The notes under the pieces are model-generated. The model saw only the letters and a program-made list of their open reading frames with translations, was not told the DNA's origin and did no database searches. A stretch of DNA of 64,000 nt from Xiphydria camelus (taxonomy: Eukaryota; Arthropoda; Insecta; Hymenoptera; Xiphydriidae), in NCBI GenBank assembly GCA_963678675.1, contig OY783194.1:18438778-18502777 (forward strand). Reading direction: 5' to 3'. The translations under genes were made by a program, and so were the position numbers. The number at the start of each line of letters is the position of its first letter. The first letter of the stretch is position 1. This document shows, in pieces, positions 27,226 to 60,977 of this stretch.

Positions 27226-27460
27226 CTGCCCAACTATGGAGAAAGGCAGTAACTGCTAACCGACAAACTTGTGGAAAATCAACTGTAACTTTGATGCCTT
27301 TAGCCGAAGGGTTTCCAAGACAGATTACTAATGAAACCTAGCTTTAACATTAAAAAAGGGTACAAAATTTGGGTACAAAATGATTCAAGATATTCAATGG
27401 CACCAAAAAACGCATCTCGGTTTGTTTTGCTAGTTACTGCCTTTCTCCATAGTTGGGCAG
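27226..27460. mobile_element. MITE with CTGCCCAACTATGGAGAAAG ends
   Basis: Inverted ends CTGCCCAACTATGGAGAAAG and complement, extending through GGCAGTAACT. Flanked by TATA on both sides (27222-27225, 27461-27464). It abuts the left tip of the long element at 27463. Confidence 0.8.
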
Positions 27461-28578
27461 TATAGTGCAGGATAAGTAGACATTGACCCGGACATTTAAA
27501 ATAACAAGGTAAATATTGGTGAAAATGTTGAGTATAGTGTTTTGATTGATATCCCAAAATTCCCCAAAAAATTCATCTTGGGGAAAATCCGCCATTTTGA
27601 AAAAATCACCGTTATCTTGGATTTGTCGAGTTTTAAGCATAGCGACTGAACCGATCATCAGATTATATTCGTTTTTGCGCCAAATTACTTCATTTAGGCT
27701 ACGGTATCTTCCAAAATACTAAAATTCATAAATATAGAACAATTTTGGTGCTCGAGAAAGAATAATATTTATTTAAATGCTATTAACGTCGACTGCTGCG
27801 CCTTTCTGCATATCTCCACGGCGAATAGAAGACAGGTGTAAATCGTAGTAGGATTGGAAGGCGAAAGGTTGACAAATGGCAATGGAAGAACTTTAGCGGT
27901 CTTGAACTCTTTTTTAGAAGTTACTGCGTCCATAAATCCATTCCAGCTAGGCCCTGGAGTTTCTTGGAGGTGGTATCCCCACATCCACAGCATATTAATG
28001 AGATTGGCTTCCTTGGCTGAGGCAGGTTCTGGAAGAGCAGCGCTAACGTCTTCCGCAACGATAAGTGCTGTACCGATTCTGGGTTTTTCATAAGGTACCA
28101 ACTCGATTGTACCTAGAGACCTCAACTCTGTTGTCGGAAGTGATTGGTTAGTTCTTGAAATCGGATCGCTTGCCTTAATGGCTTTTGAAGGCGTTATGCA
28201 CCTTATCCCTCCCATGGCGTGAAAGGTGCCAGGACCATCTAAAGTCCTCACGTTGTAATCAGCATTGTCGAATACAAACTGTACAAATGCACCTTTGTCC
28301 ACTGATGGCTCAGCGTTCTGTGCAACTGCATCCTCAAAACGAATCGTTTCCGAGTACGACGCACATACACCAAGTCTGGAAAGCATATCAAGTAACAGCC
28401 TCGAGCCATATCGTTGGTGAAAGGTGACTCCTACTCCAAGTTGTAAAGGAGAAACGAACGAACGTTGTCGGGCAGCAGCAACTATCGAATATGCGATTGT
28501 TGTGGCTTTTCTTTTTGTAACGGTGTCTTCATCGAATGATTTCCGAGTTTGAAGAACAGTTTTCAGAAAACGTTGTAG

Positions 28579-30853
28579 TAGTCCAGTCATATCGTACATC
28601 CAACCTTGCAATAATTAGGGTAAACCTAATTTTTCTATATGTTGTTAGGATCCACCTGGGTTGTATAAATCCAGATTTGCAACCCTGAAAAAGTTGTGCC
28701 ACCTGAGATATAACCAAAAAACCGCGATATTTTTGGACTTTTTTCAATTCTTTGCCAAGAAGACACTAAAGGGAACTTCTGACGAAAAACGTCATTCTTA
28801 CCTTTTCTAAAGTAGATAAACTTTGCTACAATTTAAGCTCTAGCAGAGCTCAGTAGCTCTCGTAGTTGATGAGGTACAGCTTTGCAAAGATGACAATTTT
28901 TTTCTAAAACGGGCAGACTTTAGCTTACGCTCTACTTTCGAGTGAAATATTTTCAAAAGTACTAATCCTACATAAAAACTTCGAGAAATAAAATTTTAGA
29001 AAATTTAATTACCTTCCATTTAAAAAATGGCCAAAAACCAAAAAAGTCACAGTGAGATATCGATAGAGGCCTAAGGCGAGGGGAGCGGGATCGGGCAAGA
29101 GGGAAATAATTATTACATTGGACAACAGTGATTTTGTTACTTGAACCAGACCAGGTGATTCTTATAGATTTATGTGTCTTAAAAACGAATTTGACTCTTA
29201 AATTTGTGACGTTAGTCAGGATTTCGAGATACTTGAGGTTAAATATACGAAAACGGGCGATCTTGGCCATATTCACGGGTCTATTACAATGGAACTAAAC
29301 AATTTTTTTTAATTGCACTTGTGTCGTTTTTGAACTTTTCCATACATTACTTAATTATTCCTAAATGATTTTACAAAGCCAAATTTCAATACAAGTCGAT
29401 CATGTAGGTCCACCGCACCACGCGTCTGATACATTGAGGCCATATTCACGGCTCTATTACAATGAAACTAAAAAATGTTTCTTCATTGCACTTACAGCAT
29501 TTGAAAGTGTCATTTTTGAACTTTTCAATACATTACTTGATTGTTCCTAAACGATTTTATAAAGCCAAATTTCTGTACGACAAGTCTATTGTTCATATTC
29601 ATTTAGGCGTGTGGCGCGGTGAACCCGCACGATCGACTTGTACTAAAACTTAGCTTTATACAATCGTTTAAAAACAATCAAGCAATGAAGTGGAAAATTA
29701 AAAAATGACACTTTCAAATACTCTAAGTGCAATTAAGAAAAATTTTTTAGTTTCATTGTAATAGAGCCGTGCATATGGCCTAAATGTATCAGACGCGTGG
29801 TGCGGTGGACCTACATGGTCGATTTTTCGTACTGAAATTTGGCTTTGTGAAATCGTTTAGGAACAATCAAGTAATGTATTGAAAAGTTCAAAAATGACAC
29901 TTTGAAATGCTGTAAGTGCATTAAGAAAAATTTTTTAGTTTCATTGTAATAGAGCCGTGAATATGGCCTAAATGTAGCGGACGCGTGGTACGCTGGACCC
30001 ACATGATCGACTTGTACTGAAATTTGGCTTTGTAAAATCGTTTAGGAACAATCAAGTAATGTATTGAAAAGTTCAAAAACGACACTTTCAAATGCTGTAA
30101 GTGCAGTTCAGAACAATTTTTTTAGTTTCATTGTAATAGACCCGTAAACATGGCCAAAATCACCAGTTTTCGTATATTTAATCTCAAGTATCTCGAAATC
30201 CTGACCAACGTCACAAATTTGAGAGTCAGATTCATTTTTAGCGCACATAAATCTATAAGAATCACCTGGTCTGGTACGAGTAACAAAATCACTGTTGTCC
30301 TATGTAATAATTATTTCCCTCCTGCCCGAGCCCGCTTCCCTCGCCTTAGGCCTCTATCGATATCTCACTGTGACTTTTTTGGTTTTTGGCCATTTTTTAA
30401 ATGGAAGGTAATTAAATTTTCTAAAGTTTTATTTCTCGAAGTTTTTATGTAGGATTAGTACTTTTGAAAATATTTCATTCAAAAGTAGAGCGTAAGCTAA
30501 AGTTTGCCCGTTTTAGAAAAAAATTGTCATCTTTGCAAAGCTGCATCTCATCAACTACGAGAGCTACCGAGCTCAGCTAGAGCTTAAATTGTAGCAAATT
30601 TTATCTACTTTAGAAAAGGTAAGAGTGACTTTTTTCGTCAGAAGTTCCTTTTAGTGTTTTTTGGCAAAGAATTGAAAAAAGTCCAAAAATATCGCGGTTT
30701 TTTGGCTATGTCTCAAGTGGCACTACTTTTTTAGGTTTGCACAAATCTGGATTTATACTACCCAGGTGGATCCTAACAACATATTAAAAAAATTAGGTTT
30801 ACCCTAATTATTGCAAGGTTGGGCTCGTTTTTATGTACGATATGACTGGCCTA
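28579..30853. mobile_element. 2.3-kb foldback element inside the GCDTTS gene
   Basis: Long inverted arms (28579-~29280 and ~30145-30853) are nearly identical in reverse complement. Tips are TAGTCCAGTCATATCGTACA and TAGGCCAGTCATATCGTACA, flanked by TAG (28576-28578 and 30854-30856). The centre contains ~165-200-bp repeat units ('tttcattgtaatagagccgtg', 'tgatcgacttgtactgaaat') arranged in opposite orientations. No protein motif is present. Its removal restores the reading frame of the surrounding gene, which proves insertion and fixes the boundaries. Confidence 0.9.
29276..30145. repeat. Central repeat units of the foldback, two orientations
   Basis: At least five imperfect copies of a ~170-bp unit. 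The two on the left are in one orientation and the three on the right in the other, meeting near 29640. Each contains 'ggcctaaatgta', 'acgcgtggt' and 'tacaaagccaaattt' words. Confidence 0.75.
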
Positions 30854-32566
30854 TAGATCGATCGGGATCAAATTCTCATTTCCAGAGGATATTTGTTCTG
30901 CTGTTGGATAGGTGGAACAGTCGTAAACTTGGGACCGTATTTCTTGGCGGATGATTCTCGCCGCGGTTTCCACAATTCTTATCTTTTCTTCTGTTTCATC
31001 GTTCTTCCTCTCTCTGTACCACGCTTCATTGATAACTTGATGAGCTTTTCCTGTGAAGCAAGCGACGCTACCCTTTCCAATTTGCTCGGTAATAAAGCTC
31101 CTTTCCCCGTAAAAATTCTGTAGTTTTCTCTTTAGATGCTTTTCACTATACGGTTCCTCTTCAGGGCAGGTGTTTTTCATGAAGTCCATAAGTTCCCGGA
31201 ACGTGTACTGGCACTCTTCATTGCTCTCAAGGTAATCACAAAGCTTTTGAAACCCCTTTAGCTTGCCCTGGTCTTCAAGGCGTCCACCACGACATGACGA
31301 TTTACCTGAAGACGCCCTTGAAAACGCTTTTGGTTGGTAGGTAGGTCGACGCGAGCCTATCCGGCAAAACGTCGCGTAGCAGTCACGGTGGTATCGAGCC
31401 TCAGCAGCCACTAGATCGTTCTCAGTGCACAGTCTTCGAGAAACTTCTTCGCCCCATGAATCAGCTCGGTCTGCAGCTATTGCATGTATAGTATCTATTA
31501 TGTATACACCACAGCCAATTCTAAATGGTACTTGGCGGTCTGGATGCTTTTCCTTCTCGTAAACGTCAATGTTCTGTCCACAAAATATGCATTTTTTTAA
31601 AATCAAACACGTCACTCGCGCAGCTCAGGCGACTGCTTCGTTTCGGTTGCTGTGCACCTTCACCATCAGTGTGTGTAGGTACGCGACGCGTGTAAGCCTT
31701 CCTACAACTCTCATGCACTTTAACACTTTTTTCCCCCTCAAGTAACACCGCAATGTCATCGTTTCTTTCTTTACTCGTCCAGCGTAAAGTGTCCAGGCCC
31801 CTATTCACATCAACAAACTCACCACTTTTAAGACCTTTGCACAAAACGCACACGATGTTGTCCGACGTGGTTATTCCATAATAAAAAAATAATAATTTTC
31901 ACAAAAAATTGATAAATCGCGGCACTAAATGCAGTTTTCAGTCCTGAATCCACCACTTCGAATGTGTATTTTATACAGCAGGACACATAAATAACACACA
32001 GCGGCACGGCGCCGCGCTATCGGTTCTTTACGCTGACAGAACACAGCTATTTTTTTACGATATACAGCAACGGCACTTCGCGCTCCTCGGACAACATACA
32101 ACCGCAAACGACGTAAGCAAACTGTCGTCGACTCACCGAGCGACAGCCGGGATAATTACATGGTGAGTTTATCCCCCCACAATGCATGCCGCTTAGCGTG
32201 GGTAATTTAACACTTTCTCATCGTCGCGTCTTGTTTTCTGTCCTGAAATTAAATTTTAACTAAGCATATTCCATTATAAGTACTATTATCTCCAAACTTA
32301 TTAATGTTGTCAAGTATAATAGAGATTATAAACAATTTGGAACATAAATAAATAAAATTGGACGCTCGGTTGACTCGCTATGCTTAAAATTCGAATACTC
32401 CAATATGGGGCCAGTTTTTCCCAGATAGCGGATTTTCCAAGATAGATTTTTTGGGAATTTTGGGATTTCAATTAAGACATTTTATCCGTAACATTTTTAC
32501 CAATTTTTAGCTTGTTATTTCAAATGTTCGGGTTCGGCCAAATTTTTGTCTTATTTACCTACACTA

Positions 32567-33158
32567 GTATAGCTACATGGTGCATAACATACATATCGAT
32601 GGCCTCAAGTCAGAGGGGTCTATGAGTATACGCGTATAATGGCGTATACGCCTCTCTGACTGGAGGCCATCGATATGTTGCTGTGTAAAATCAGTCGAGT
32701 AGTTCTTGAGATAAAAAATATTTTCGTTTCTTGGCTTTTTGACGATAACTTTTGATTATAAATCAATATTTTGATCTAAACATTTACTACGAGCTTATTT
32801 ATATATAAACACAAAATATACCTGAATAGGAAACAAATTCAAGCGGGGGCAGTTTTCATATGGATACCCTTTAGGAGTTTCATGAAGGGGGTCGAAATTT
32901 CAATCGCCGTAGTATCACCGAACGGAACGAGTCGATAATTATTTAAACAAGAAACTTATAGAAATATCTTGGAAACAGCGAGAGATACGATGAAGTGAAC
33001 AAAATTGTTAAGATTTTGAATGAAATTCAAAGTTCACGTGACTGGATTACCAAACAACCTGAGTCGATAATTTGTTTAAACAATGATCTTATGTAAATAT
33101 TTCGGACACTGAGAAATACGACGAAATGGAGGAAATTTGAAGACTATGCGTAGACTTA
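32567..33158. other. Intronic sequence with a ~78-bp palindrome
   Basis: At ~32600-32680 'gatggcctcaagtcagaggg' pairs with 'cctctctgactggaggccatc' around 'gtatacgcgtataatggcgtatac'. An inverted copy of ~25861-25945 lies at 32741-32822. Confidence 0.7.
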
Positions 33159-33295
33159 GGCCCACTTGTTCAATGTAAGTTCAAGGCTGGTTCAGCTTGA
33201 ACCGCCGTTCTTGCTATATTATGTGTGACACGAAACATACCAAGAACGGCGGTTCAAACTGAACCAGCCTTGAACTTACATTGAACAAGTGGGCC
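33159..33295. mobile_element. GGCC-type hairpin MITE
   Basis: Ends GGCCCACTTGTTCAATGTAA and complement, nearly perfect hairpin. Flanked by TTA at 33156-33158 and 33296-33298. Confidence 0.9.
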
Positions 33296-33518
33296 TTAGT
33301 GGGTCAAATGTTCAACCGTGACGACATTATTGAAGAACGCGAGTTCATTGTTTATTTGAACAATGAGTTGATGCAATCTTCTCGGAATTGGTTTTAAATG
33401 GGTTAAAATTGTTGAAATTTTGACGGTGCAAAAGTATATTAAATTGTCAGAAGGTATAAAAATGGAAAAGTCGATTCATAAATTGTAAACGATTTTCAAA
33501 AAATTAGTTATATCCCCT
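33296..33518. other. Short AT-rich spacer
   Basis: No feature seen. Confidence 0.4.
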
Positions 33519-34965
33519 AAAGTACATCGAAGATGTAAAAAAAAGCCAAGTACTATATAGGGCCACTTTAAAAAAATGCACTAATAATCGTGTCGACAAA
33601 AATCCCAATAAAAATTGCTCGCTGTATTTCGTCCTTTCCTCCCTTCCAAAAAAAAACACGTAGAAAAATATTGAGATATCCGAATTTAGTGCCAAGAGCC
33701 TGTACCAAGTTTATTTTTCATGGTGGGCTGTATAAGGGGCGCATAAGTACGAGTGAGAACTTCGATTAATCCTTCACACATCGCCCACCCTGCAAATCAT
33801 TCGGTATAATCAATATTAACAAAAGTAACCAAGATCGAAATGACAAATGACTATATCAAAGCTGGCTACCAATGTTCAAAATGCTACTTAGCTGGCTCGT
33901 GGCAGAAGAAATATTGGTGAATATTTGGCATCAGATTATTATAATATTGAATTGATTCTAATAATTTATTGGAAAATACAGAAGTCAATAAACACAAAGT
34001 TAGAAATGGCAAGTATATTAAAATCCTTCAGAGTTACACTGTATAAAAGCGGACATTTTAATTTATTTACTACATAGGTAACTTATGTTTTCCATTTGAT
34101 AGGTATTAGTTCTGATATTTACATTGCCTATGCAACGTATAACAGTTATATATGGTGTTCCACTCAAGAGTTTCGTACAGAATATATTTTAATAATAAGT
34201 ATTTTGCGAATATTTATTTTGTCAATAAATTGAAAAAACCTTACTGAATGACGAATTAAGCAGTGATTAACTGGTCCTGAAGCTGGCCAATAATTTATTC
34301 CAATGACCATTGTAATCTTGTTATTTGTCGACGAAATAAATATCGTCAAAATGAAGTGTATCTTATACGAACCTCCTGAGCGAATTACCTTGCGCATTTC
34401 TTATTTTAAATAATTCCGTACTGCTTTTTAAGAAGTTAGTTCAGACCGGTAACTGCATTATAGTTATAAATATCACGCATCCAGCAAAACAGCATTGATT
34501 ATATTCAACTCTTACTCTAACTGATTTAATCTGAATTTAATTAACGCGCGTTTAAGAATAACAATTTCTTCAGGCACGGGCCCGCGAAGTAGCATTTTGA
34601 ACATTGGTGGTATAGTCATTTGTCATTTCGATTTCGGTTACTTTTGTTGGTCTTGATTATACCAAGTGATTTGCAGGATGGGCGATGTGTGAAGGATTAA
34701 TCGAAGTTCTTACTCGTACCTACGTATGCGCCTCTTATATCGCCCACCCTGAAAAATATACTTGTTATAGGCCCTTAGCACTACAATAATATCAATACAT
34801 TTTTTAATGAAATTGTTTTTGGAGGAGAAGGAAGAGGGTGAAGCACAGCGTGCAATTTTTGTTGAGGTTTTTGTCGACACGATTATTAGTTGATTTTTGT
34901 TTTAATGGTCCTATATAGTCCTTGGCGTATTTTTTTTTACATCTTTCATGTATTTTGGGGTTTCT
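33519..34965. mobile_element. Divergent foldback with mirrored coding fragment
   Basis: Arms 33519-~33895 and ~34590-34965 are imperfect inverted copies; the conserved parts include 'ctaataatcgtgtcgacaaaaa' and 'acttcgattaatccttcacaca'. On the minus strand the right arm can be read as a short Cys/His-rich protein start (VGERRNPKIHERCKKKY, 34995-34804), and the left arm keeps a degenerate mirrored version. This resembles the zinc-binding start of transposase-like proteins, but the family is unknown. Confidence 0.6.
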
Positions 34966-35388
34966 TCTTTCTCCTACGCAAAACTTGTTGGTCACAGGAT
35001 AATTTGAATCACATATTCGAGATCTAATTTCTCATGAATAAAGAATGCAGTCACGTGTATATGTCATACACTGGGTGTCACATTAGCCAGGATGTGTCTG
35101 GTCTACGCTGTCCGACATCAGCCAGTAGCAAGTCGCTACTCGACCAAGGGCAATCACAGCGCCGTGCTCCTGTCTAAATATTTATAAATAAGTGATATTC
35201 TTTCCCTATCCTCTTGTTAGATATATTTTGTGACTGTTGACTTATACAAAAGATCAGTTATGACGAACAAGAATGCTATTGTGGCGACCCATCGCGCTAC
35301 GGCGCCTTCGTAATCAACGGGGTTTTTGACGACACATTTATTCGAAAACTATTTTATATAATAGAAGGAAGAAGGAAAGGATATCGGG
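34966..35388. other. Intronic spacer, no gene seen
   Basis: Slightly GC-richer than average near 35095-35170 and 35285-35310. I see no tRNA or coding signal. Confidence 0.4.
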
Positions 35389-35533: not shown

Positions 35534-35545
35534 GTATACATATGT

Positions 35546-36843: not shown

Positions 36844-37120
36844 TTAATCAAAGTAATTTCCATCGTTAGCAATAACATTTTGCCATTTTTGAGGCAGTAA
36901 ATGAATTCCGATATAAAAAAAATTCTCTTTTTTTTGGTGATATTCACTCATCAGGCCACTTTGTGATGTCTTCATAAGAAGTAAAATGCTGCTCCGAAAG
37001 GCTATTCTGCATCGATCGAAATAAATGATAGTCCGACGGGGCAAGGTCTGGTGAATACAGCGGAAGTATTAACACTTCCCATCTCTAAGTTGTTCTAACA
37101 CATTCTTGACTGATTTCGCT
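36844..37120 (-). pseudogene. mariner transposase, C-terminal part
   Basis: After the insertion the minus strand reads AKSVKNVLEQLR, then SPDLAPSDYHLF (third catalytic Asp of the DD34D set), a segment with SEQHF and KKREFF, and ends YFD at 36844. The frame is broken by small indels; the C-terminal 66 codons are open (37044-36844). It belongs to the 40022-40410 part on the other side of the foldback. Confidence 0.85.
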
Positions 37121-37123
37121 TAG

Positions 37124-40018
37124 TAGTCCAGGCAATGGGTCATTTCTATTCGGAAAAGGTCTGAAAGAAATGAAATTTGGTGGGATGGTAGATATAGGTC
37201 CCCTGATAGTACACCTGAGTTTGCGACCTCGGGGGGTTGCCGCTCGAGGGGTGGGGGGATGAAAACTCTGCGTCGCGACGCTTTTCGGAGAATAGCGCCG
37301 TTATGGTAAGTGCTATCGAAAAAAAGTTCAAATGAAATATGTAGAGAACAAAATTATACGTAATTTTTGTCTGTGCATTTTTCGTCTGCGACCAATAGTT
37401 TCTGCTCCACGGCGCGCCAAAGTTAGGGATTGATTTGCAATTTTCAACAAAATCAGAATTTCATCGCGGATTAAGGCGAAGGTCGCTACCAAACAATTTT
37501 GTAACATTTTTTTTCTGAAAGAGTAATGTTTTCTGAGTCTGTAGATGCTGGATTTCATACATTTGGTCGTATATAAAAAAACATGTGATTTTTTGAAGCG
37601 CGCCCCTTAATACTCCGATATGAGCATTTTTTAGTTATCATTGTCTACGGTAAATATTTCCTTACGATTGTTGATCTAGGCGTCAAATTTATGCTTTTTG
37701 TGCATCATACATTATACAAGAAAATATAATTTTCAACTTGTTTCCAGACCACCCTTGAGGTAGAGTTGATCGGTGCGTTTTTTTAATGTGGTATCCCCAA
37801 GAAGCCTAATCCACGGTCGATATCGGGGTTTATTTCACTTTGAGTCGCTTGCGACGTTTTAAAGCTGACTCGCCTTCGTTGTCATCATTCTCAGACATCA
37901 ATTCTGAGCCATAATCGGTAAACTCGGCGTTGTCTGTTTGGTCCTCATCGTCCTGTATCTGAACGGGCACGTTTTCGTCATCTTTTGCATTGTCGTCGTC
38001 GTCGTCGTCTAATGCAATCTGGTCGGGAATGTTTTCGCAGGACGTCCCAGTACAGTATAAACACAGAACCGAACATTTTAATCCTGCTTTACGGCAACCA
38101 CAAGCAGATCCACAACTTTTCTGGCATCTGCACGAGATGCTCTTAAGTAAAACCTCTGGAGCTGGTTCCTTTGCGATCCGTATTGCGTCGTCTTGTGGTT
38201 GTTCTTCGCCATCCATGATCTTCTTGAGGTTTCTCAACTCCCCGCCAGCTCTGTACTTGACAATAAGTACGCAATGAATGATGATGGCACGCATCGGATG
38301 TTGGTGGCAGCGCCGCGAGATTGGATGAATTTTTGGAGACGGCTCGTACAAAATTCGTATACCGCAGAGTCCAACTCACGATGTTCGCTTCCTGCACCAT
38401 ACTGCCTCAACATAAACAGTTCGCCAGCAGCAACGATTTCCGTTAATTCTGCATTGGAGTCGTCAAATACCTGAATCGCGTCTGTTAATATTGGATTTTT
38501 TTTCTAAAGTTTTGATGAATCGAATCTTGCCTTGATTGAATAATGTCGATGTAGTATCACACCCACTGAAAGCATGCAGAAATAAAATATTTTTTGCAAC
38601 AGCATCGCTATATTGCAAATTCTGAGGCGAATAGAATATATCCTCCTTGTTTCCTCTACCCGGCTCGCGCAAATAAACATTCGGGATCTCTCTCGCTTTA
38701 GCAGTCAACAATACAAGCAAATCTACGTCTTCTTCAATAACAAATACTGAGAAAAAAGAGAGAGCAGGTTCGATGGCAGCTTGCACAATTAATGAATCCG
38801 CGTCTTCGACCGCCTGCTTAACCGTGTAATTATGTGCTTCCAACTTTGTGTGTAGCAATGCGATGAGGCGCCTTTTGTTGAATCTGGCTACTGTACCTGG
38901 CTACGTGTACTCCGGTCGAAGGATACCGTTAAAACGGACTATTCGCGAATAAATAGCTACGGTTCACGGAACATATCGCCCGCCTTGCCATCGGGATTGA
39001 CCCTTGATCGCGGTAATATTAATTGCTAAGAAACGACGTAAATACTTCTGAATTCCGACCATCGTTTGTCGGAACACTACAGGAATAATAAAAAGTAAAT
39101 ATATACACTCTCTCTCTATACGCAACAAAATTATCGCAACAACTTATTTTACTCTAAAAATTGTCAAACTTCGGAAGCCCGTAGCACAGCGAAAAATCAT
39201 CGTATCCCTATCTTTTTTTTTTTTAATTAAAGCTTAAAATCTCAGCTTTACTATCCCAAAGTTTATTTTTCGATTTAAAGCACCGAGAGATTAAGAGACC
39301 CTGAAAATCAAGGTCATCTTTTGAAACTTAAATTTTGCAAAGTTTGCGCATTGACACGGAGTTACAAACATTTTTTTTCAAATTTTGATCACAGAAAATG
39401 AAAGTTCAACTCTTAAATAATATATAATAAATAATAATAAATAGTAAGTTGAGGCCGATCAGGGGGCACATATACCTCAATCATGATATTTAATGATACT
39501 TAAAAAATGCCCATATCGGAGTATATAGGGGCGCGCTTCAAAAAATCATGTTTTATTATATACGACCAAATGTATCAAATCGGGCATCTACAGACTCAGA
39601 AAACATTACTCTTTCAGAAAAAAAATGTTACAGAATTATTTGATAGCGATCTTCGCCTTAATCCGCGATGAAATTCTGATTTTGTTGAAAATTGCAAATC
39701 AACCCCTAACTTTGGCGCGCCGTGGAGCGGAAACTATTGGTTGCAGACGAAAAATGTAGAGACAAAAATTATGCACAATTTTGTTCTCTACATATTTCAT
39801 TTGAACTTTTTTTCGATAGCACTTACCATAATGGCGCTATTCCCCGAAAAGCGTCGCGACGCAGTTTTCATCCCCCCACCCCTCGAGCGGCAACCCCCCG
39901 AGGTCGTAAACTCAGGTGTACTCTATCAGGGGACCTATGTCTACCATCCCACCAAATTTCATTTCTTTCCGACATTTTGCGAAGAGAACCCGTTTTTTTC
40001 TACCCATTGCCTGGACTA
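37124..40018 (-). mobile_element. Long-inverted-repeat element with GCDTTS/CXC gene (copy 2)
   Basis: Arms of ~500 bp (37124-~37640 and ~39505-40018) are inverted copies with ~10% differences; both contain 'ggcgcgcc', 'gcgtcgcgacgc' and 'cctcgagcgg' or its complement. Tips are TAGTCCAGGCAATGGG on both sides, flanked by TAG (37121-37123, 40019-40021). It is inserted in a mariner. The interior carries the C-terminal part of the GCDTTS/CXC-family gene on the minus strand. Confidence 0.88.
37830..38885 (-). pseudogene. GCDTTS/CXC-family gene, C-terminal part
   Basis: The minus strand starts ~38885 with NKRRLIALLHTKLEAHNYTV, then DADSLIVQAAIE and IEEDVDLLVLLT, spaced acidic motifs that recall PIN/FEN-like nucleases (inference), then NILFLHAFSGCDTTS and QGKIRFIKTLEK. 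A frameshift at ~38490 leads to VFDDSNAELTEIVAAGE and RQYGAG; a second at ~38240 leads to a C-x-C-x3-C-x3-C-x-C-x6-C-x3-C-x2-C-x4-C array (CXC/tesmin-like), an Asp/Glu-rich tail and a basic end at 37830. Two frameshifts show the copy is dead. The N-terminal half is absent here but present at 27769-31853. Confidence 0.8.
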
Positions 40019-40021: not shown

Positions 40022-40410
40022 TGCGGTCCAGCATTGTCGAACATGTGGCACCCAGTAATCTCGCTTGTTAATGAATCCTAGTGCTTTTAAACGCTTACTT
40101 ACACTCTATTTATCAACCTTTAATGCTATTGACAATTCCTTTAGTGTTTTATGTGGATCTTCGTTCAATAATGTTTCCAACTCCGCCTCTTCAAATTTTT
40201 TTGGTGCGCCAAAGTGTTCTTTGTCTTTCACGTCGTAATCGCCGTCTTTAAATCGTTGGAACCATTCTCTACAACTTCTTTCAGATAGAGCATTATCACC
40301 ATAGGCTTCCACGAGTAAACGATGACTTTCAGCTGATTTTTATTTAAAATAAAATATTGGAGTAAGACCTCCCGCATGTGCTGTTTTGTAGGTACGAAAT
40401 GCGACATTTT
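40022..40410 (-). pseudogene. mariner transposase, N-terminal part
   Basis: The minus strand begins near 40408 with MSHFVPTKQHMREVLLQYF. After a one-base shift it continues with the HTH region (YGDNALSERSCREWFQRFKD, DVKDKEHFG) and ELETLLNEDPHKTLKELS, stopping at 40106. Downstream, just before the insertion site, FDNAGPH (second catalytic Asp) is readable, followed by a stop codon. The region between, with the first Asp (GDEKW in the family), is deleted. Confidence 0.85.
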
Positions 40411-40579
40411 CAATGTAATAAAAAAAGTTGCTATTAACACTGCAATGAAATGATGTATACCAAATCTGAAAGCTTGCTTTTAGTACATGTAGATGTATGG
40501 TTGTACATTTAAAATTGAATCCTCGTAGTCCTAGAACGACACCTATCAGTAAGAGGCGGAAACTTATTCAAGTACCTAA

Positions 40580-46505: not shown

Positions 46506-48504
46506 ATGAGTGGTGACAGTGAGAAAAATAATGAAAAATTGATTGATCTTGTGCGGGAGTGCAGTTTTTTGTATGATTTGCGTCATCCTGACTATAAAGA
46601 TGCTGTCAAGAAAGCACAAGCATGGAAGGATATTGCGGAGAAACTTCGTCAAAATAGTAAGTTACATTTTATTCAAAATTATTATTATTATAAGGTTTGA
46701 TTAATTTAGAGTAAGTAATCGATATGTACATCATTCATGAACTTGATTGTTGAAGTAACGAGCGAAATAATTTCGTGCTGTTCGGGCTGCTTCATTTGAT
46801 CTTTCTCTTGATGGAGCAGTGGCTGAGAAAGCATTGGTGAGTTGATTTGTGGCGCCTTCCTCTAATTCTCTCTTATTTTCTGTTCCGATCTGATCTGATC
46901 TAACATAATTGTGGAGAAAACAAGCAGCTTTTACAACATGTACAGCAGTATCAACATCACCCTTGATAGGCTTAAAAAATATACGCAACTTTTGAGCTAA
47001 AATGCCAAAGGCATTTTCAATGATTCGTCGAGCTCTGCAATGTCGTTTATTGTACGTTAATTTTTCGATATCACCAACGACTGTACTACATGGGCAAGGA
47101 CGCATTAAATAAGTTTCTAACTTGAACCCTTCATCACCTACAAACACATGAGGGAGGGGGGTGTCCGTCCCAGGTAATGGCTTTGGAGGCAGAATTATTT
47201 TTTTATCGATATAATCGCGATAGAAGGAGGAATTTAGGAAAATGGCACTATCACTGTGCCGCCCATAACTGCCAATGTCGACAACAGTGAAATTGTAGTA
47301 TGGATCCACTATGGCCAACAGAACAATCGAATAATAGTTTTTATAACACAAATAACTTGATCCACTCCTATTAGGGCATTTAATTCGCACGTGCTTCCCA
47401 TCTGTACTCCCGATGCAGTTGGGGTAGTTCCATCGTTCTCTATATCCAACTTTGAATTTCCTCTAAACTTCCGTTGGGTTGGGCAAATATAGAGGTTGTA
47501 GAGCATTCCATATCTCCATACAAACTTGTTTAACTGTGCTGGAAACAGTAATGCGTCCAACTTGGAAGGAGAAGGCTATCGTCTGATGGGAATCACCTGT
47601 TGCCAAATACCTGAAACAATGAAAACAAAGAACATGAAGAACTACAATAAACCAAAAAAAAATCAACAGTGCCATTTAAAAACCAATTTGAAACTACTAA
47701 GTAAACATAAAAATTATAGTGGTGTTGTGGTGTTATTGTATAACTATGTTGATAACTTTTTTTTCTAATTCGTTACTGCTATATTCTGTTTGTTACAGTT
47801 TTCACCGTGAAGATGAAATGGAAAAACTTGAGGGATTCATATGTGAAGTATCTCAGGTACTTGAAGGGAGCTACTGGTTCGGCGAAGAAGTTCAAAAATT
47901 GGCCCTGGGCTGCACGTTTGGATTTCTTAAAAGATAGCGTCACTCCACGGTCTACGGTGTCAAATGTACCTGAGTCAAGTAAAACAGGAGTTGTTCAAGT
48001 GGACGAGGACACCAATGATGGTAGTTCGGTGACCAACAATGGAGGCACTATGGCCAACGATGATTCCCTAATGCCACCGCCTCCAAAAAAACCAAAGCCA
48101 AAGGAAGTCGTGGGGGATATTGATAAGATTTTGAATTACTTACAGAATAAAAAAGACAAGAAACGTATACCCCATCTCGACCATATCGATAACCTTTTTT
48201 TGAGCTGCGCAAATACGTTTAAGAGGTTGTCACCCAGATCACAAGCTCTTAAAAAATTGAGATGGCCCAAATGTTTGGTCGCGCTGAACTTCGCAATATG
48301 GGTGCTCAAACTACCCCTCCATTTTCTCCGTTATCTCAGTCAAATAATGCATCGTCGCAAAGTTCCGGTGGTTCTCAGCATTCCTCCGAAGGATCCATTG
48401 ATCTGACTTACACAAACCAGCCGCGAAGTGTTGCACATCTCGACTCCTCAATGGATTCAGCAAAAGGTTTGTACGAAACCTTCTCAGGAGAGGAAATGAA
48501 CTAA
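46506..48504 (+). pseudogene. MADF-BESS protein of the Harbinger element (one frameshift)
   Basis: Exon 1, 46506-46656, starts MSGDSEKNNEKLIDLVREC and holds the first MADF half (LYDLRHPDYKD, WKDIAEKL). A donor gtaagt and acceptor (tttgttacag, 47798) join it in frame to exon 2 (47799-48504), which continues VKMKWKNLRDSYVKYLR (second MADF half). A proline/lysine linker and a BESS-like motif (DNLFLSCANTFKRLSPRSQ) follow. A one-base shift in an A run near 48253 is needed to continue KIEMAQMFGRAELRNMG and the serine-rich C-terminus to the stop at 48504. MADF proteins bind DNA and bring the Harbinger nuclease to the TIRs. Exon 2 is otherwise intact, so the inactivation is recent. Confidence 0.82.
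46731..47610 (-). pseudogene. HARBI1-like DDE nuclease of the Harbinger element (5' truncated)
   Basis: An acceptor (tgtttcag) precedes the exon start at 47610, which reads YLATGDSHQTIAFSFQVGRI, the conserved middle of HARBI1 proteins. A stop/frameshift follows near 47460. After it come the three catalytic blocks: CIGSTDGKH (first Asp), a segment with DIGSYGRHSDSAIF, HVFVGDEGF (second Asp) and RARRIIENAFGILAQK (Glu), ending at 46731. These are the DDE_4 signature. The upstream N-terminal exon is not found. The whole gene lies inside the intron of the opposite-strand MADF gene. Confidence 0.87.
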
Positions 48505-51040: not shown

Positions 51041-51042
51041 TA

Positions 51043-52141: not shown

Positions 52142-54729
52142 GATGTGTCTATGACATTACATGTACGAGTAAACTAAAAACAAGAAATCCCTGATTTTAT
52201 CACATAGTGATGACGCGTAAGTGTATGTTGGCGTGAGGTACGACATATGAAAAAAAAACGAACCGTATAAATATATATATCGTCGGTTTAGATGTGATAC
52301 CTCGTAACTGAAAAATCAGGAATTTTTTGTTTTTGGTATATATGTACATACATGGGTGAATCTCACAAAAATGTACTCCGGTGGAGCTCATTTTGTACTT
52401 ACATTTTTTTGTGAGTAAGGATAATGAAAAATTGATAAAAGGAGTCTCAGAGTGGTTTATTAGCATGGCCTATACATGAACCAGTCTAATTTTACATATT
52501 AATTGAGATTTTCATGATTTTAGAAAAATAGGTATCACGCGAATGACAGGTTAGCATGGTAAAGACGCAAACTTGATTTTTAATTAATATAAACATTTAT
52601 TTCCTGTTCACAAATAACACAAATACCAGATTTCAAACATAAAACTCTTAATAGAAAATATACCAGAGCAAAACAAAATGTTTTTGAGAACGTATAGTCT
52701 AACGTTAACACATTATAACTGTAGGAACTGAAGTACCTATTTTTTTAACAATAATAAAAACAGCTTAACGCTAATAGTTTCTAAGTAAAAAATTACTAAG
52801 TAGAGATCAATAATTATTAGCCTTTCAGGGGAATGATGGCCACGGAAATGATGTTTTTGAGATTTTCGTGCCATTATTTCAGCGATTTTCCATTAAAATA
52901 CAAAATTAATATGTTGGTGAACAAAATAAGATTATAGAAATAAAATAAACAAAGAATCGAATTATTTAATTGATTTTTGAGGTAAAAAACACTTACCATG
53001 GGAATGATGTTGAACTAGTTACATCTACAAAACTCACACAGAATTGCTACGTATCACACGAATTTAGAATAAACTTTTCCCTTTGACTGCCTGAGCGCGA
53101 CTAAACAGGTCTTCCCACGCCTATTAAAGCGGTTAGCAATTCGTTGCATGTTATCCCCACCATTTGATTTCATTTTAACGATTGCAACACGGGAGTGACG
53201 ATATATCCCAGGTACGAACTTGGAATTAATGTACATTTTTAAAAATGATAAAAAATTCTGTTCTCTGTGGCTTGATTGGAATATTTGGAGTTTGCTTCTC
53301 TACTCCCATCAGAAAATAGTTGAATATACTCACTTTCTACTGAACTGTTCCACATTATTGCAGATAACCCGCTTTAGGGACAAAGCACGGGAATGATATT
53401 TGGAAGCAAATCTGAGAAAAACATAATACAAAATAATAAAAACTAAAAAAAACTTACTGAATATCTTCAAAATTTATTTCTGCTAAACTGAGCGTAGGAA
53501 AGTTATACAATTCTGTATTTTTTAGATATTTTTCTTATTGAGTACAGACTAATGCGCGTTTTTGCGAGATTCACCCACATGTTTATTACATGTACGAGTA
53601 TACTAAAAACAGAAAATCCCTGATTTTTCAGTTACGAGGTATCACATCTAAACCCCGACGATATATATATTTATACAATTGGTTTTTTGAAGTGAAACTT
53701 TTATGCTGAGGGTACTAAAATCGCGCGCCCGACACGAGGTCCGTAACGAAACCCACACACTCCAGCGCTTCCGACCGTGACTCACTCATACAGCGCTCTC
53801 GACCCTGCCCCAATACACCGCTCTCAACTCTGCCCCATTCCACCGCTCTCTACCGTACGTAGACTATCGCCTTTGCCAGGCAAGCCACATGCGTCGATTT
53901 TCCGAGGCTGGAGCGCCAGGCCGCCGTGCGACTATCATTCACGCGACGAGGCTCACTATTATCGCAACCTAAGTAAAACGCACTAATCTAGATATCATCT
54001 GTACATCGGTCGCAATAGCGAGGTAGGCGGTAGATATGTTTTGGTGAATGGGGGTTACGAATGCGTTTGCAGTCCCACACATTTCCCTCAAAACTACCTC
54101 TCAGTATATCTAATTGTAAACCACGGCTACATCACGGAATTACTGTATCTCTTTGAATCCAATATAATCACCAGTAATATTGTGTGTGTGTGTGTGAGTG
54201 CAGTATTAAATCATTGCAACTAACCGATGCGGTTTAAATCCACCACTCTACGTTTTCGGTCACTATTCGTGTCACGCAGTAGTGCCTTCGGGATTTATGA
54301 CCTCGAGGAGATCTATTCTTGATCGCACATGTTATAGTTATTAACTTGAAACTGAAGAAAAATGACGCAAAAATCAATCGCTGTTTAGATTGTGCAGAGG
54401 GCGTCTGGTTTGTGTTGCTCGAGAGGGTTTCTTCGGGCGATGAAAGCTATTGTTCGTATTATGAGGCGGCGCAGTGTCGCACCTCTACTAAGAGGACTGT
54501 TTAGTTTCACCATAAATCTAGCGTTTAGGTCCCTTTTTTGGACGTATCCGTAAGATGACATCAGAAGCCAGACGAGAGAGAGCGCAGAGTTATAATACTT
54601 GTGAGTTGTTTGTATTTCGTTTGTACATTTTTAGTTTTCCGGATTTTACCGCGTCGAATGGCCGGCTATACGGAGCTCGTGTAGTCTGCGATCGGAGTCG
54701 TGACCTTTCTCGAGTAACCACCATGCATT
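52142..54729. other. Nested dispersed repeats, no gene seen
   Basis: Holds copies of the 49722-type repeat at 52248-52345 and (inverted) 53590-53690, with ~1.3 kb of AT-rich sequence between them, so they may be the ends of one ~1.5-kb inverted-repeat element (52142-53690). At 53775-53860 'ccgctctc.acc.tgccccat' words repeat three times. A short (GT)n run lies at ~54178-54198. Confidence 0.5.
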
Positions 54730-54965
54730 ACTGTACATTCTTTCATGTGTGTGTGTGTGTGTATTAATTTATAATTATTGTTGCCAAAAAAACAACAGAA
54801 CGGTCAAAAGAGTACAGTGACAGGCAACGTGTAAAATAAACTTTCAATTTCGTTAACGTCAATGAACACTGAACATTCTTTCGCGTGTGTGTTATATTAA
54901 AATTATTATGGCAAAAACAGGAAAACAACGGGCAAAAGAGTTTCGTGACAGGCACCGTGTAAAGA
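54730..54965 (+). repeat. Diverged tandem duplication covering an ORF start
   Basis: The segment ~54738-54830 ('cattctttcatgtgtgtg', 'aattattgttgccaaaaaaac', 'gtgacaggcaacgtgtaaa') is a diverged copy of ~54873-54965, which contains the ATG and first codons of the frame at 54908. Confidence 0.7.
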
Positions 54966-55345
54966 AAACAATGACGAAGATACTACCTAAAACTGATGCA
55001 GAACGAAGTCGAAAATGGAGAGAGAGAATTAAATTAACACAATCAAATATTGCTATATCTGCTAATGCAGATCAACACCAGTCCCAAACCCTGGAGAATG
55101 TAATAGATTTTCAAGTTCCTGGAGGATCCAATATCGGTGAAAATACATCCAATGAATATGATATTCCTTACACTCTACATCTTGTGCCCATAAAAAAATT
55201 CATATTGAATTCAACAAAAAACACAAAACGTGTGGCCGCCACACGCGGAAGAAGTGAAACTTCGATATCAGTTTCTCTGAATTTGATTCCGGTGGTATTA
55301 GTTTCAATTGGCTCTATACAAGTCTTTTACAATGCTTCTTCGTAG
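54908..55345 (+). pseudogene. N-terminal fragment of a transposon-like basic protein
   Basis: The frame starts MAKTGKQRAKEFRDRHR, continues with LPKTDAERSRKWRERIK and then a polar stretch. The repeated 'KTxAERxRxWRxR' pattern is typical of the basic start of several insect transposon-associated proteins (from memory); the family is unknown. From codon ~105 the frame runs into a palindrome (55223-55436), so the C-terminal part is not the original protein. Truncated. Confidence 0.4.
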
Positions 55346-55436
55346 AGCCAATTGAAACTAATACCACCGGAATCAAATTCAGAGAAACTGATATCGAAGT
55401 TTCACTTCTTCCGCGTGTGGCGGCCACACGTTTTGT
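55223..55436. repeat. Near-perfect 214-bp hairpin ending an ORF
   Basis: The left arm begins ACAAAACGTGTGGCCGCCAC and the right arm ends with its exact complement; the arms are ~95 bp and the loop (~55319-55344) reads 'caagtcttttacaatgcttc'. No MITE tips or target duplication were seen. Confidence 0.92.
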
Positions 55437-55807
55437 TTTTTTTCGTTTGTCATGCCTCACACCAACATACACTTACGCGTCATCACTAGGTCCGCAATGT
55501 CTATGACAATACATCTGTACCAAAAACAAAAATCCCTAATTTTTCCATTACGAGGTATCACATCTAGACCGACGATATCTTTCGATGTTCATTCGAGAGC
55601 GAATGAAAGTATTGGCACACTTATGATTAAACAATAATTAATGCTTTGTTGTATAACCTTTTCTTTAAATTACTTCTTTTAGTCTCTCTAGCGCAGAGTA
55701 CACTAACTTTCATATAATTTCAGACGATATGGCATGCGTTTTATTTTGACATATTTATCGTATGATGTTATCATTCCTTTCTTTCCAATCCGACCATAAA
55801 GGTTCAA
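55437..55807. other. Intronic sequence with inverted dispersed repeat copy
   Basis: Contains 'cctcacaccaacatacactt' and 'ttacgaggtatcacatctag', inverted relative to the copy at 52200-52345. Confidence 0.5.
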
Positions 55808-56103
55808 CACGTTCGCGACGGGGTGTACCACCGATGGTCCATTCTTGTCTGTCCCATGGGATGGGATGAGCCACCAGTGGTACATACAGAATTGTCCTAT
55901 CGGGCGGGCTGGGGCAGTGTAGTTCTGACAGAGGAAACAATGTATGTTTTTATGTCGATTGTTTTATGTGCACAAAAGATAGAAAATGGTTAAACAAGTG
56001 GTATATGATTAATTTCGAATCAGCGCCGCCAGATGGGAGAAAGTACCAAAAATAAAGCCGCCCCACGGCGGAGACTCTAAATACAGGCCCCGTCGCGAAC
56101 GTG
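55808..56103. mobile_element. piggyBac-type MITE, CACGTTCGCGACGGGG ends
   Basis: Tips CACGTTCGCGACGGGG and complement are exact, flanked by TCAA (55804-55807) and TTAA (56104-56107). GC-rich, non-coding, 296 bp. Confidence 0.85.
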
Positions 56104-56107
56104 TTAA

Positions 56108-56643
56108 TGGAACTTATATCGGGAGATATAAATTATATGCAGAAATTACGGCAGTGATAGAAGTTGGTATACAGTACGGAATTTTAATCGACAGTTTAAA
56201 AGCAAAGAAAAATTAAGAAAATCATTAGCGTAGTGGCCGGCTACGTAAACTTGCCAACAGGAGAAGCAAGAAATAATGGATGTAGTGAAAGTAAATCCAA
56301 AAGTGACTTCCACGGCGATAACTATATAAATGAAGGAAGAAAAATAATGTAGAAGTACATCCGGTAACGGCACGTCAGGTCCTCAACCCTCCATGACACG
56401 CATATACGGGGAATCCCCGTTGCATATAGTTTCGTTGTGATATCTTTTGTTTCCAACAACTATCGAGTTGAGTATCCATGTATCCTCCTCTCCACTCTTG
56501 ACGTCTCAAATACAGGTCTAAGTAGTTTTGCGGCGTCAGTAGTTATAAAGCAATTAGGTGTTTCGGTCGTTTCCCCGCAACGCGTGCTATTGAGTAAGTC
56601 AAATAATTGAACATATACGCAAGTAACAAAACCGTTTTGAGTG
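56108..56643. other. Sequence upstream of a piggyBac fragment
   Basis: No gene; 'tttcggtcgtttccccgcaa' (~56561) recurs in diverged form at ~56921 (gtcggtcctttccccgctac). Confidence 0.4.
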
Positions 56644-56808
56644 ATGGATGAACGCGAAAGACAGCGACTTCTTTATTTACTTGAGAATGTCAACGATCAA
56701 GAAGCCGGACTAACTAGTTTGGAAGATACCGACGAAGAAGGCGACATAGAAAATGGGTACATCAGTGATCATGATTTTGTTATCCTTAATACTAATTTTC
56801 CTACATAA
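56644..56808 (+). pseudogene. piggyBac transposase N-terminal fragment
   Basis: A 54-codon frame starting MDERERQRLLYLLENVND followed by an acidic stretch (LEDTDEEGDIENGYISDHD), then a stop. This is the usual layout of a piggyBac transposase start (basic/hydrophobic helix, then Asp/Glu-rich tail). Nothing of the catalytic core follows. No TTAA-flanked tips were identified for it. Confidence 0.5.
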
Positions 56809-57310
56809 TACTAACTGCATTTGTCTGTTTGAAGTGTATATTATATTTGTGTTTGCTTACATAACCTTCCTGGAGGTCCTATTACAAAAATTCAGCACGA
56901 ATTGGTTGTTTATTTAATGTCGGTCCTTTCCCCGCTACGCGTTCTTTGATGTTACACAAACATACGCGTGTCATAGAGGATTAAATGAACCCATTACTAC
57001 TTGAGAATCGCAAGAAAGCAATCGTTCATTAGTGGTACAAATCGATAAAAAAACTAGACTTTGTAAATGAAGTATAAAAAGAGATATATAGCATTCTCTG
57101 AGAGACTGTACTATTCTCAGAGAAAAGTAAATTTAACATTTTTCGTTGTGGTGGCCGCATTCGAGTGTGGATATATTCCAATATTGAGTTAGACCCAAGA
57201 AACGTTCAGGCGACTGTCGAGTATAGAGGTAGTGGAGTAGTTATATAGAGATGTATGGCTTCATATGGTATAGGAGAGATAATATTCATTGATAATAATA
57301 TAATAGATAG
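56809..57310. other. AT-rich intronic sequence
   Basis: Apart from the diverged motif copy near 56921, no feature seen. Confidence 0.4.
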
Positions 57311-58036
57311 TCAGGTGTACTTAAACAAAAATATTTTAAACAATACTCTAACAAAAACACGCAAAAATTGAATCTGGGACAAAATTATTACTTTCAAAAA
57401 GATATAATGATCCGAAGCATAAAATCCCTTCTGTCTTTGCCTTTCAAGCAACTGTTCACAAGCAAATAAATGCTGTTCAACATCTCTCGATTTCAACTCA
57501 TACGGCACCCAATTTTCTTGCTTCTGAATCATTCCCATGTCTTTGAGACGTTTTGAAATTGCTTGTTGAGTCACTCCCAATGATCGTGCCAATTTTTCTT
57601 GACTTTGACACGAGTCTTCATCAAGTAATGCCTCCAATTCTGCATCTTCGAAAACCTTCTCTGAACCCGCTATGCCGATTTTCGACGTGAAAATCACCGT
57701 TCTTGGAGCGTTGAAATCACCCACGACACATTTTTTCACTAATAGTGGACTCACCATAAGTATTTTAGAGCATTCGATGAGCCTTAGCCGCGGATTTCTT
57801 CAAATTGAAGCAGAAAATTAAAAACTTCCGCAAATAACGAGAATTTGGCTTATAAACTGACACTTTCAATCGGGAATAACTTTATGATGCAGACATAAAC
57901 CTCATAATGTTTCTATGGGATTATGTTGATAGATGTTCAAGTTTATTGCATGACGTCTATGATCTATTTATTTTGACGACTGCTTACCGCTAAAGCCATC
58001 TATAGGAAAACGGCGGAAGTAAAGTTGTACACCTAA
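57311..58036 (-). mobile_element. mariner deletion derivative
   Basis: The right tip (inverted) TTAGGTGTACAACTTTACTT is followed by TA (58037-58038). The left tip TCAGGTGTAC is diverged. The 726-bp element keeps a transposase N-terminal part on the minus strand and lacks the catalytic half. Confidence 0.75.
57380..57835 (-). pseudogene. mariner transposase N-terminal half, frameshifted
   Basis: The minus strand reads FNLKKSAAKAHRML and NTYGESTISE near 57820-57755, then QRSKNGDFHVENRHSG in one frame and SEKVFEDAELEALLDEDSC, LARSLGVTQQAISKRLKDMG (second HTH) and WVPYELKSRDVEQHLFACEQ in the other. These are the two N-terminal HTH domains and linker of mariner transposases. The catalytic DD34D part is missing; the sequence breaks off after ERQRQKGF. 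At least one frameshift and one stop are present. Confidence 0.85.
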
Positions 58037-58088
58037 TATTATACTAGTATGCCTTTAAATAGGCTGACTCGTCGGAAAACCGGGGTAA

Positions 58089-58265
58089 AGGCCATCACAC
58101 ACAAAATTCCGTAAGGCCGTAAGCAGTGAGCGTAAGCGAATATACCAATCAGGATCAAGTATTCCGTTGTGGTGGGGTTACGGACAACGGCATACTTGAT
58201 CCTGATTGGTCTATTCGCTTACGCTTACGTCTTACGGCCTTATGGAATTTTGTGTGTTATGGCCT
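58089..58265. mobile_element. GGCC-type hairpin MITE
   Basis: Ends AGGCCATCACACACAAAATT and (inverted) AGGCCATAACACACAAAATT, flanked by TAA (58086-58088, 58266-58268). Nearly all of it forms a hairpin. Confidence 0.88.
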
Positions 58266-58302
58266 TAACCTAGCTAGTTGTTCCTAGGTAGTCTTATCTT
58301 AT

Positions 58303-58600
58303 AAAGGTGCGTTTATATATTCGGCATTCGGCGAATGCCGAGCACGTGCTCGCCGATGTCAACGAGGCTTTAAGCAAATGCTCGGCGAATGCCAAATGTG
58401 TAAACGGGTTGCTCGCTATTTGCCGATGGCCAAATGTAGTGCTCGTCCGAATGTTCGCCGTTCCCGTAGTTTATCGGTCTTTCGTGGCACATCAAAGCAA
58501 ACGAATAGTCGTAAACTCCTACCACTTCATTATAATCGCCAATCTAGAGTTAATCCCACCGTCGGTCACAATTACAAGGTAGGCGGTCTGTATCCGCGAC
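58303..58600. repeat. Repeat with AAGGTGCGTTTATA end (copy 1)
   Basis: Begins AAGGTGCGTTTATATATTCG and has many 'ggcattcggcgaatgcc' mirror words and 'gagcacgtgctcgccgatgt'. The inverted second copy lies at 61640-62134; the shared part includes 'tagagttaatccc'. The reading frames here (58307-58605) reflect repeat structure, not a gene. Confidence 0.75.
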
Positions 58601-58795
58601 TCTAAGCTACTATGAAAGATTCTGTATACGTTTGAAAAATGCAGTGGCAAAATCTCTGAAAGTATTATATTTTTTTAATTGAATTATATACACTAGTGAC
58701 ATTCCATCGAAAATACAAACTTTTGAATCAGATTTTATTATTTCCTGAAAAGTGTTGTTTCCACATGCATGTACTTTTTGAATTTCGATTACTAA

Positions 58796-60974
58796 TAGGC
58801 CAGGCGAAATGTCGGGAAAAAAGCCTCAATAAGGAAATAATTAGTGGAAAGCTGGAAATTGCTTTAATCGCTTTATTTGGACTCAGATATTACTCTCCCA
58901 AGTTTTCCCCCTCGAGCGAGGTCGGCGTTGGCCCTTCTGGCCCTAAGAAGGTACCATTTTTCGGTTTTTTGCAAATATCTCGCAAACCATCAACTTCATC
59001 AACAAAATACCTATTATAAAAAATAATCTAGAATAAATTTGCTACAAAAAAGTTCTGTACCGTTTGTCTCTAATGTGAACCGTTACGATGCTACGACCAT
59101 TCAAAGTGGAGCCCTTTTTGATTCTTGCGGAAAAGTTATAGAAGTCATATGCCATATTAAAGTTTCTACATGTTATACATATTTGTCAGCATTCCAGGTG
59201 CACAAGCTGTTAACTTGTTACAAGTATAACAGCTTTTCAATGTAAACAGCAGCTGTGGCAAAGTACCTACGATTAGTATTATTATTGAGTAGTATTGACA
59301 TAAAATCACTCTTTTCCACACCACCTGTAGTCCAGTCAATGAGGAGTTTTACCTTACATTAAATCGGGGAGTTTTGAAAGTTGGCATGTTAGTTCAGTTT
59401 TACGTCCTGAACAACATATTAAGTTTGCGACATCGTACTGTTGTGGGAAACGCCGCCATTTTAACAAAATGGGGGCGAAAATCAGTTTTTTTGCATTATC
59501 TCCTTTTTGGTTGCTTCCATCCAAAAAGTACCTATAATAAAAATTGTAGAGGACCAAATTCTCTACAAGTTTTGTCTGAAACATTTTTCTATTAAACAAA
59601 TGGTTTCTGAGCTATATTATATCACAGGAACCTTTTCACAGGAAATTACACTTATTATTTACGGATTATCTACTAGTAATCAATTATACTCGTTTTCACA
59701 CCACCTCATCCATGAGGTAGAGTAAACGATCGCAGAAGTAGTATCGCAGCCACTGAATGCGTGCAAAAACATTACGTTATCTACCACTGCTTGTCCACCT
59801 TGCAAACTTTGTGAAGAAAAAACTACTTCTTCGGTTTTAAGCCAAGGAAAAGTCAAGTTCTTTAATGTACAGTCCGATGCAATGCTTTGGACTTTTCGAG
59901 AACATTATAGAACTTGACTTTTCCTTGGCTTAAAACCGCAGAAGTAGTTTTTTTTTCACAAAGTTAGCAAGGTGGACAAGCAGTGGTAGATAACGTACTG
60001 TTTTTGCACGCATTCAGTGGCTGCGATACTACTTCTGCGATCGTTTACTCTACCTCATGGTGGTGTGAAAACGAGTATAATCCGTAAATAATAAGTGCAA
60101 TTTCCTGTGAAAAGGGCGCGTTTTTGCGATTTTAAGAAATATGCCCCACTTTGATATAATATAGCTCAGAAACCATTTATTTAATAGAAAAATATTTCAG
60201 ACAAAACTTGTAGAGAATTTGGTCCTCTACAATTTTTGTAATAGGTACTTTTTAGATGGAAACAACCAAAAAGGAGATAATGCCAAAAAACTGATTTTCG
60301 CCGCCATTTTGTTAAAAATGTTAAAATGGCGGCGTTTCCCACAACAGTACGATGTCGCAAACTTAATATGTTGTTCAGGATGTAAAACTGAACTAACATG
60401 AAAAATTTCAAAACTCACCGATTTAATGCAAGGTAAAACTCCCCATTGACTGGACTACAGGTGGTGTGGAAAAGAGTGATTTTATGTCAATACTACTCAA
60501 TAATAATATTAATCGTAGGTACTTTGACAGAGCTGTTTACATTGAAAAGCTGTTATACTTGTAACAAGTTAACAGCTTGTGCACCTGGAATGCTGACAAA
60601 TATTTATAACATGTAGAAACTCTGATATGGCATATGATTTCCATAACTTTTCCGCAAGAATCAAAAAGGGCTCCACTTTGAATGGTCGTAGCATCGTAAC
60701 GGTTCACATTAGAAACAAACGGTACAGAACTTTTTTGTAGCAAATTTATTCTAGATTATTTTTTATAATAGGTATTTTGTTGATGAAGTTGATGGTTTGC
60801 GAGATATTGGCAAAAAACCGAAAAATGGTACCTTCTTAGGGCCAGAAGGGCCAACGCCGACCTCGCTCGAGGGGGAAAACTTGGGAGTAATATCTGGGTC
60901 GAAATAAAGCGATTAAAGCAATTTCCAGCTTTCCACTAATTATTTCCTTATTGAACTACTATTCGCTTGGCCTA
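58796..60974. mobile_element. Long-inverted-repeat element with mirrored GCDTTS fragment (copy 3)
   Basis: Arms of ~1 kb (58796-~59870 and ~59890-60974) are inverted copies with few percent differences and small indels. Tips TAGGCCAGGCGAAATG and TAGGCCAAGCGAATAG are flanked by TAA (58793-58795, 60975-60977). The open frames at 59039-59245 (plus) and 60743-60537 (minus), and at 59374-59599 and 60181-60411, are mirror images of the same arm sequence and not genes. The centre is a mirrored fragment of the GCDTTS-family gene. Confidence 0.88.
59722..60060. pseudogene. Mirrored fragment of GCDTTS-family gene at element centre
   Basis: On the plus strand (right half, ~59935-60055) the sequence reads EVVFSSQSLQGGQAVVDNV and LFLHAFSGCDTTSAIVYST with a small frameshift. 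The left half (59722-59850) carries the same on the minus strand. It corresponds to the GCDTTS region of the gene at 38885-37830 (NILFLHAFSGCDTTS). About 40 codons remain. The halves meet around 59870-59890. Confidence 0.8.
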
Positions 60975-60977
60975 TAA

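Follow-up and report, generated by a model that had tools for sequence, protein, structure and literature searches.

Academ is counted among the superfamilies of DNA transposons with a DDD/E transposase (PMC9587614), and its branches differ in their target-site duplications (TSDs) and in a further encoded enzyme: AcademH has TSDs of 9 or 10 bp and a helicase, AcademX has TSDs of 3 or 4 bp and a nuclease, with the length of the duplication linked to the enzyme (PMC10045372). Academ is reported in Bemisia (PMC9143410) and in bivalves, to which it is nearly confined among molluscs and where curated elements have a mean length of 5565 bp (PMC10294476). Here we describe a 64,000-nucleotide stretch of the hymenopteran Xiphydria camelus (GCA_963678675.1, contig OY783194.1, positions 18,438,778 to 18,502,777 of the forward strand; hereafter the window), which holds four elements with long inverted arms, A to D. 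We consider it very probable that these are copies of AcademX-type DNA transposons that have decayed and lost internal parts. An initial annotation, made from the letters of the window, had already delimited the four elements, with tips, inverted arms and 3-bp duplications, all of which we confirm, and had read the gene carried in pieces by three of them as the mobility protein of a possibly undescribed transposon group.

Copies elsewhere in the same genome (357 Mb in 38 contigs) bear out the first part of that reading. A 145-amino-acid (aa) piece of the gene has at least 151 genome matches (150 of 1168 candidates scored), and 20 copies were retrieved, picked mainly for long open frames. Both tips were found in 18 of these, 14 by pattern and four (L014, L017, L024 and L025, in each of which one tip begins TAA or TAC instead of TAG) by reading the ends; L015 lacks a left tip and L026 shows none. 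An exact 3-bp duplication flanks 17 of the 18 tip-bounded copies, L016 having none. Among four further loci picked for their closeness to element C (L029–L032), L029 has a clean pair of ends, L031 has an inner pair without a TSD, and L030 and L032 offer no usable pair, so that bracketing ends are present in 19 of 24 loci. Over the 18 long copies, L029 and the four window elements taken together, 21 of 23 have exact 3-bp TSDs, and L029 has one of 4 bp (AATT); when flanks were swapped between elements as a control, only 22 of 506 pairs matched at 3 bp. The terminal inverted repeats (TIRs) begin with TAG or TAA, most commonly as TAGKCCAGTC, and the arms of the long copies measure about 250–660 bp. 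Three of the 20 copies retain an uninterrupted frame over the whole gene (stop to stop, 1511 aa in L011, 1478 aa in L012 and 1468 aa in L017); these are 6.5–7.1 kb long and encode one protein of approximately 1450–1500 aa. One may argue that a host gene was captured repeatedly by unrelated inverted-repeat elements, since the window shows only pieces of the gene, in elements whose tips differ. However, 18 of the 20 long copies are bounded by tips of a single type, 17 of them with 3-bp TSDs, and the protein itself carries a transposase core; within the reach of 20 selected copies, capture is thereby refuted, and we give it next to no credence. Seven copies of one family share 98.8–99.4% identity at different sites, and identity rises to 99.6% and 99.8% in pairs from two other families; thus, the natural reading of these sequences is that the family moved recently in this genome.

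In its relatives, the gene encodes a single protein, typically of 1400–1570 aa, in which an N-terminal Cys/His region is followed by an RNase H-like DDE transposase, a nuclease of the FEN1/EXO1/XPG type and a Cys-rich, CXC-like tail. The transposase fold is considered likely on the strength of a predicted model: a Foldseek search with it returned nothing at E ≤ 0.001, whereas a second aligner ranked DDE transposases first, with Hermes, a hAT transposase, as the best structural neighbor at a modest score. A helical insertion precedes the last Glu, and the catalytic D, D and E are invariant in the 69 sequences aligned. An alternative third catalytic residue, in the motif GSGLEEL, was dropped, being E in 46 and D in 14 of the 69 sequences, in contrast to E520, which is invariant and lies in the expected helix. 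The Pfam family DUF6589 (PF20231) matches nine of 30 scanned members at E ≤ 0.01, in each case partially, and, where its match was placed, overlaps the DDE core (P0096 and P0131; in P0131 the match spans 662–904, with the second Asp at 651 and the Glu at 900). Thus, DUF6589 is probably a transposase domain.

The nuclease was assigned by fold comparison rather than by sequence search, since searching the PDB with one protein yielded no more than weak EXO1 matches (E 0.025) and a search with a profile of A1 gave nothing useful. Model residues 716–1048 match the FEN1/EXO1/XPG fold clearly, at 10–17% identity in structural alignments. Nucleases of the FEN/XPG family have seven acidic active-site residues, and the acidic residues of this PIN-like fold, together with a Lys and an Arg, fall at the positions of the FEN1 active site. 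These active-site residues do not vary among the 69 sequences, apart from one of the seven acidic positions, which is D in 63 sequences and E in the other six; the last catalytic Asp sits in GCDTTS. The PIN/FEN-like core suggested by the initial annotation is therefore borne out by modeling, and its CXC end corresponds to the Cys-rich, CXC-like tail: the CXC profile (TCR, PF03638) matches one of 30 members (E 0.0032), the Cys pattern is visible by eye, and some sources label members "Tesmin/TSO1-like CXC domain-containing". What that annotation missed was the transposase core, the likely mover, because A holds only its beginning and C and D lack it.

In view of its strict conservation, the nuclease itself might be proposed as the recombinase, with the RNase H-like domain in a structural role. 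However, the DDE residues are equally invariant, the FEN-family enzymes known to us are flap and end nucleases rather than strand transferases, and a short TSD of fixed length is typical of DDE transposition, which together make this proposal highly improbable. We favor a division of labor, proposed from fold and residues, in which the DDE core most likely excises the element and joins it to the target at a 3-bp stagger, which would give the observed 3-bp duplication, and in which the fused FEN1/EXO1-type nuclease most likely processes what remains at the donor or target site, by trimming flaps or resecting ends. DNA binding probably falls to the two termini of the protein, the N-terminal Cys/His region and the Cys-rich tail.

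All three features given for AcademX, a DDD/E transposase, an encoded nuclease and a TSD of 3 or 4 bp, are found here (PMC10045372, PMC9587614). Members of the family occur in Bemisia (P0117) and in the bivalve Pinctada (P0132 and P0170), both from groups with reported Academ (PMC9143410, PMC10294476), and the size of the elements is similar to the mean of the curated bivalve ones. The initial annotation's "undescribed" group is thus not supported: as far as these features can tell, the elements most likely belong to a superfamily that already has a name, as an AcademX-type family with well-resolved anatomy and some unusual ends. The AcademX nuclease is of the XPG type, a specification that goes beyond the bare word "nuclease" of its description, and we know of no other named superfamily that combines a DDE transposase, a nuclease and a TSD of 3 or 4 bp.

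The competing view is that a separate, unnamed superfamily came to resemble AcademX in these features through convergence only, and several observations weigh in its favor and against our assignment. Membership was judged on features from published descriptions, not on the proteins or termini of Academ references. Pfam names no transposase in the family beyond the partial DUF6589 matches, and sources call nearly all members "uncharacterized", "hypothetical", "unnamed" or CXC-domain protein. Members are also found in Nucella, a gastropod. That is unexpected for a superfamily described as almost exclusive to bivalves among molluscs (PMC10294476). Set against the agreement in all three features, in host groups and in size, these points leave convergence an improbable explanation.

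With AcademH, the AcademX-type family shares the DUF6589 matches of some members over part of the transposase core, this domain being presumably a mark of AcademH-like fungal proteins. In contrast, the helicase and the 9- or 10-bp TSDs described for AcademH (PMC10045372) were not seen: no helicase family matched any of 30 scanned members at E ≤ 0.01, and none appears in the Pfam annotation of 120 of the 139 matches to the P0131 transposase region. The nuclease resembles FEN1, EXO1 and XPG in fold and active site and differs in being fused behind a transposase. The likeness to hAT lies in an RNase H fold with a large helical insertion ahead of the last Glu, but hAT elements make 8-bp TSDs, whereas the flank matches of the 23 elements do not exceed 4 bp. 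Long inverted arms or multiple TIRs are shared with foldback and other long-TIR elements, such as Galileo, which has long arms, and Mutator-like elements (MULEs) with multiple long TIRs; these belong to the P and Mutator superfamilies, respectively. A literature search under "GCDTTS" or "DUF6589" found nothing, and 51 pattern matches in viral contigs included none that encodes a relative. A few members carry unusual names or sources: P0102 is called a glutamate-cysteine ligase (Oratosquilla), P0147 comes from a metagenome-assembled genome of Thiodiazotropha, and P0103 is a rust-fungus protein; wrong annotation, a bacterial bin that contains animal DNA, and wider spread are all possible.

The large and mostly unnamed GCDTTS/CXC proteins of animals thus become a mobile element whose mechanism can be read from its protein, in which a DDE transposase and a FEN1/EXO1-type nuclease are fused. 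Given the uninterrupted frames and the families of near-identical copies in this genome, what the nuclease does during transposition could be tested directly. The finding is also a warning to annotators: in arthropods, molluscs and cnidarians, GCDTTS/CXC genes probably belong to transposons and not to the host.

Within the window, the pieces in A, C and D all match parts of one gene, as the initial annotation held, when numbered on the full-length relative P0048 (Table 1), to which B has no match.

Table 1. Elements, gene pieces and nested tips in the window; residues follow P0048, and a dot marks features given no strand.
Feature	Position	Strand	Tips and TSD	Content
Element A	27463..32566	-	TAGTGCAGG / TAGTGTAGG; GTA	
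A gene piece 1	30854..31859	-		aa 5-323; two frames, shift near 31595
A gene piece 2	27790..28578	-		aa 323-586; first catalytic Asp in FDNADYN; stops just short of second Asp
Element B	28579..30853	.	TAGTCCAGTC / TAGGCCAGTC; TAG	long-inverted-repeat element
Element C	37124..40018	-	TAGTCCAGGC at either end; TAG	
C gene piece	37968..38879	-		aa 1147-1453; second half of FEN-type nuclease (EDVD, GCDTTS) and Cys-rich array
Element D	58796..60974	.	TAGGCCAGGC / TAGGCCAAGC; TAA	near-perfect palindrome
Inner tip pair of D	59328..60457	.	TAGTCCAGTC	nested in D's arms
Mirrored GCDTTS fragment	59728..60042	.		one per D arm; aa about 1228-1260

The anatomy proposed earlier needs three corrections. B is an insertion within A's gene, at residue 323, which is present in the gene matches on either side of it, as would follow if one codon was repeated by the 3-bp TSD; the piece in C, which holds the 3' part of the gene only, is split among three frames; and the arms of A are weaker (73–84% identity) than the main ones of the other three elements (86–98%). 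In total, A covers the Cys/His region at the N terminus and the first part of the transposase domain and lacks the second D, the E, the nuclease and the CXC-like end. A, C and D resemble products of internal deletion, with the 5' part kept in A, the 3' part in C and a mirrored scrap in D. No complete protein is encoded by any of the four, which are dead or non-autonomous and could move only with protein supplied by copies elsewhere in the genome.

The motif TAGKCCAGKC occurs seven times in the window against 0.26 expected, a count reached in none of 100 shuffles. Four of the seven sites are the ends of B and C, and the other three belong to D, namely its left end and its two inner tips; the tips of A deviate from the motif. 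The element C lies in an apparent mariner copy: when its flanks are joined minus one TSD, translation continues over the junction (DNAGPH, stop, AKSVKNVLEQL), the surrounding sequence being what we take to be mariner. In five C-type loci (C itself and L029–L032), the main gene match begins near residue 1127–1148, and this shared start suggests that they derive from one founding deletion that then spread. What L029–L032 retain of the gene is limited to the Cys-rich end and the second nuclease half, and in L031 and L032 this lies inside larger palindromes. Selection keeping such nuclease-half elements was considered and dropped, since the ratio of nonsynonymous to synonymous substitution rates (dN/dS) ranges from 0.39 to 2.33 over 15 pairs of six C-type copies (stop codons omitted), with no clear constraint.

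Doubled tips were found in five of the 23 elements, belonging to two families, and in none of the other 18. In gene orientation, the second tip lies approximately 626 bp inside the right end in L009–L011 and 316 bp inside the left end in L012 and L028; shuffled tips gave 0.00–0.05 matches per element at these positions. Where two pairs were possible, the outer was taken as the sole pair with a 3-bp TSD; among the inner pairs, only that of L009 has any flank match (AA). Compared with the opposite arm in inverted orientation, the outer segment is the more similar in both families (91–99%) and the inner one has diverged further (70–80%), so that to judge from sequence the doubled ends look like one end copied onto the other. 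It is conceivable, if doubtful, that long arms grow in this way, with one end copied in inverted orientation to a place beyond the other end and the outermost of the two tips then used. End copying, if real, would imply a replicative or break-repair step in transposition, perhaps involving the fused flap nuclease. D's inner tips (59328 and 60457) have mirrored flanks that show no TSD, and their sequence differs from that of the doubled tips.

Other features of the window were recorded in passing. A perfect 33-nt inverted repeat (27222-27254 and 27432-27464, spanning approximately 240 bp) adjoins the left tip of A. Mariner-type remnants are recognizable by eye at about 36900-37123 and 40022-40480, split by C, and at 57311-57799; Pfam found no match in 40228-40479 and only weak helix-turn-helix and similar matches in 57311-57799. 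Finally, positions 46731-48406 carry what is presumably a Harbinger-type pair: the minus strand encodes a DDE_Tnp_4 transposase (E 7.1e-26), the plus strand a MADF protein (E 5.5e-07).
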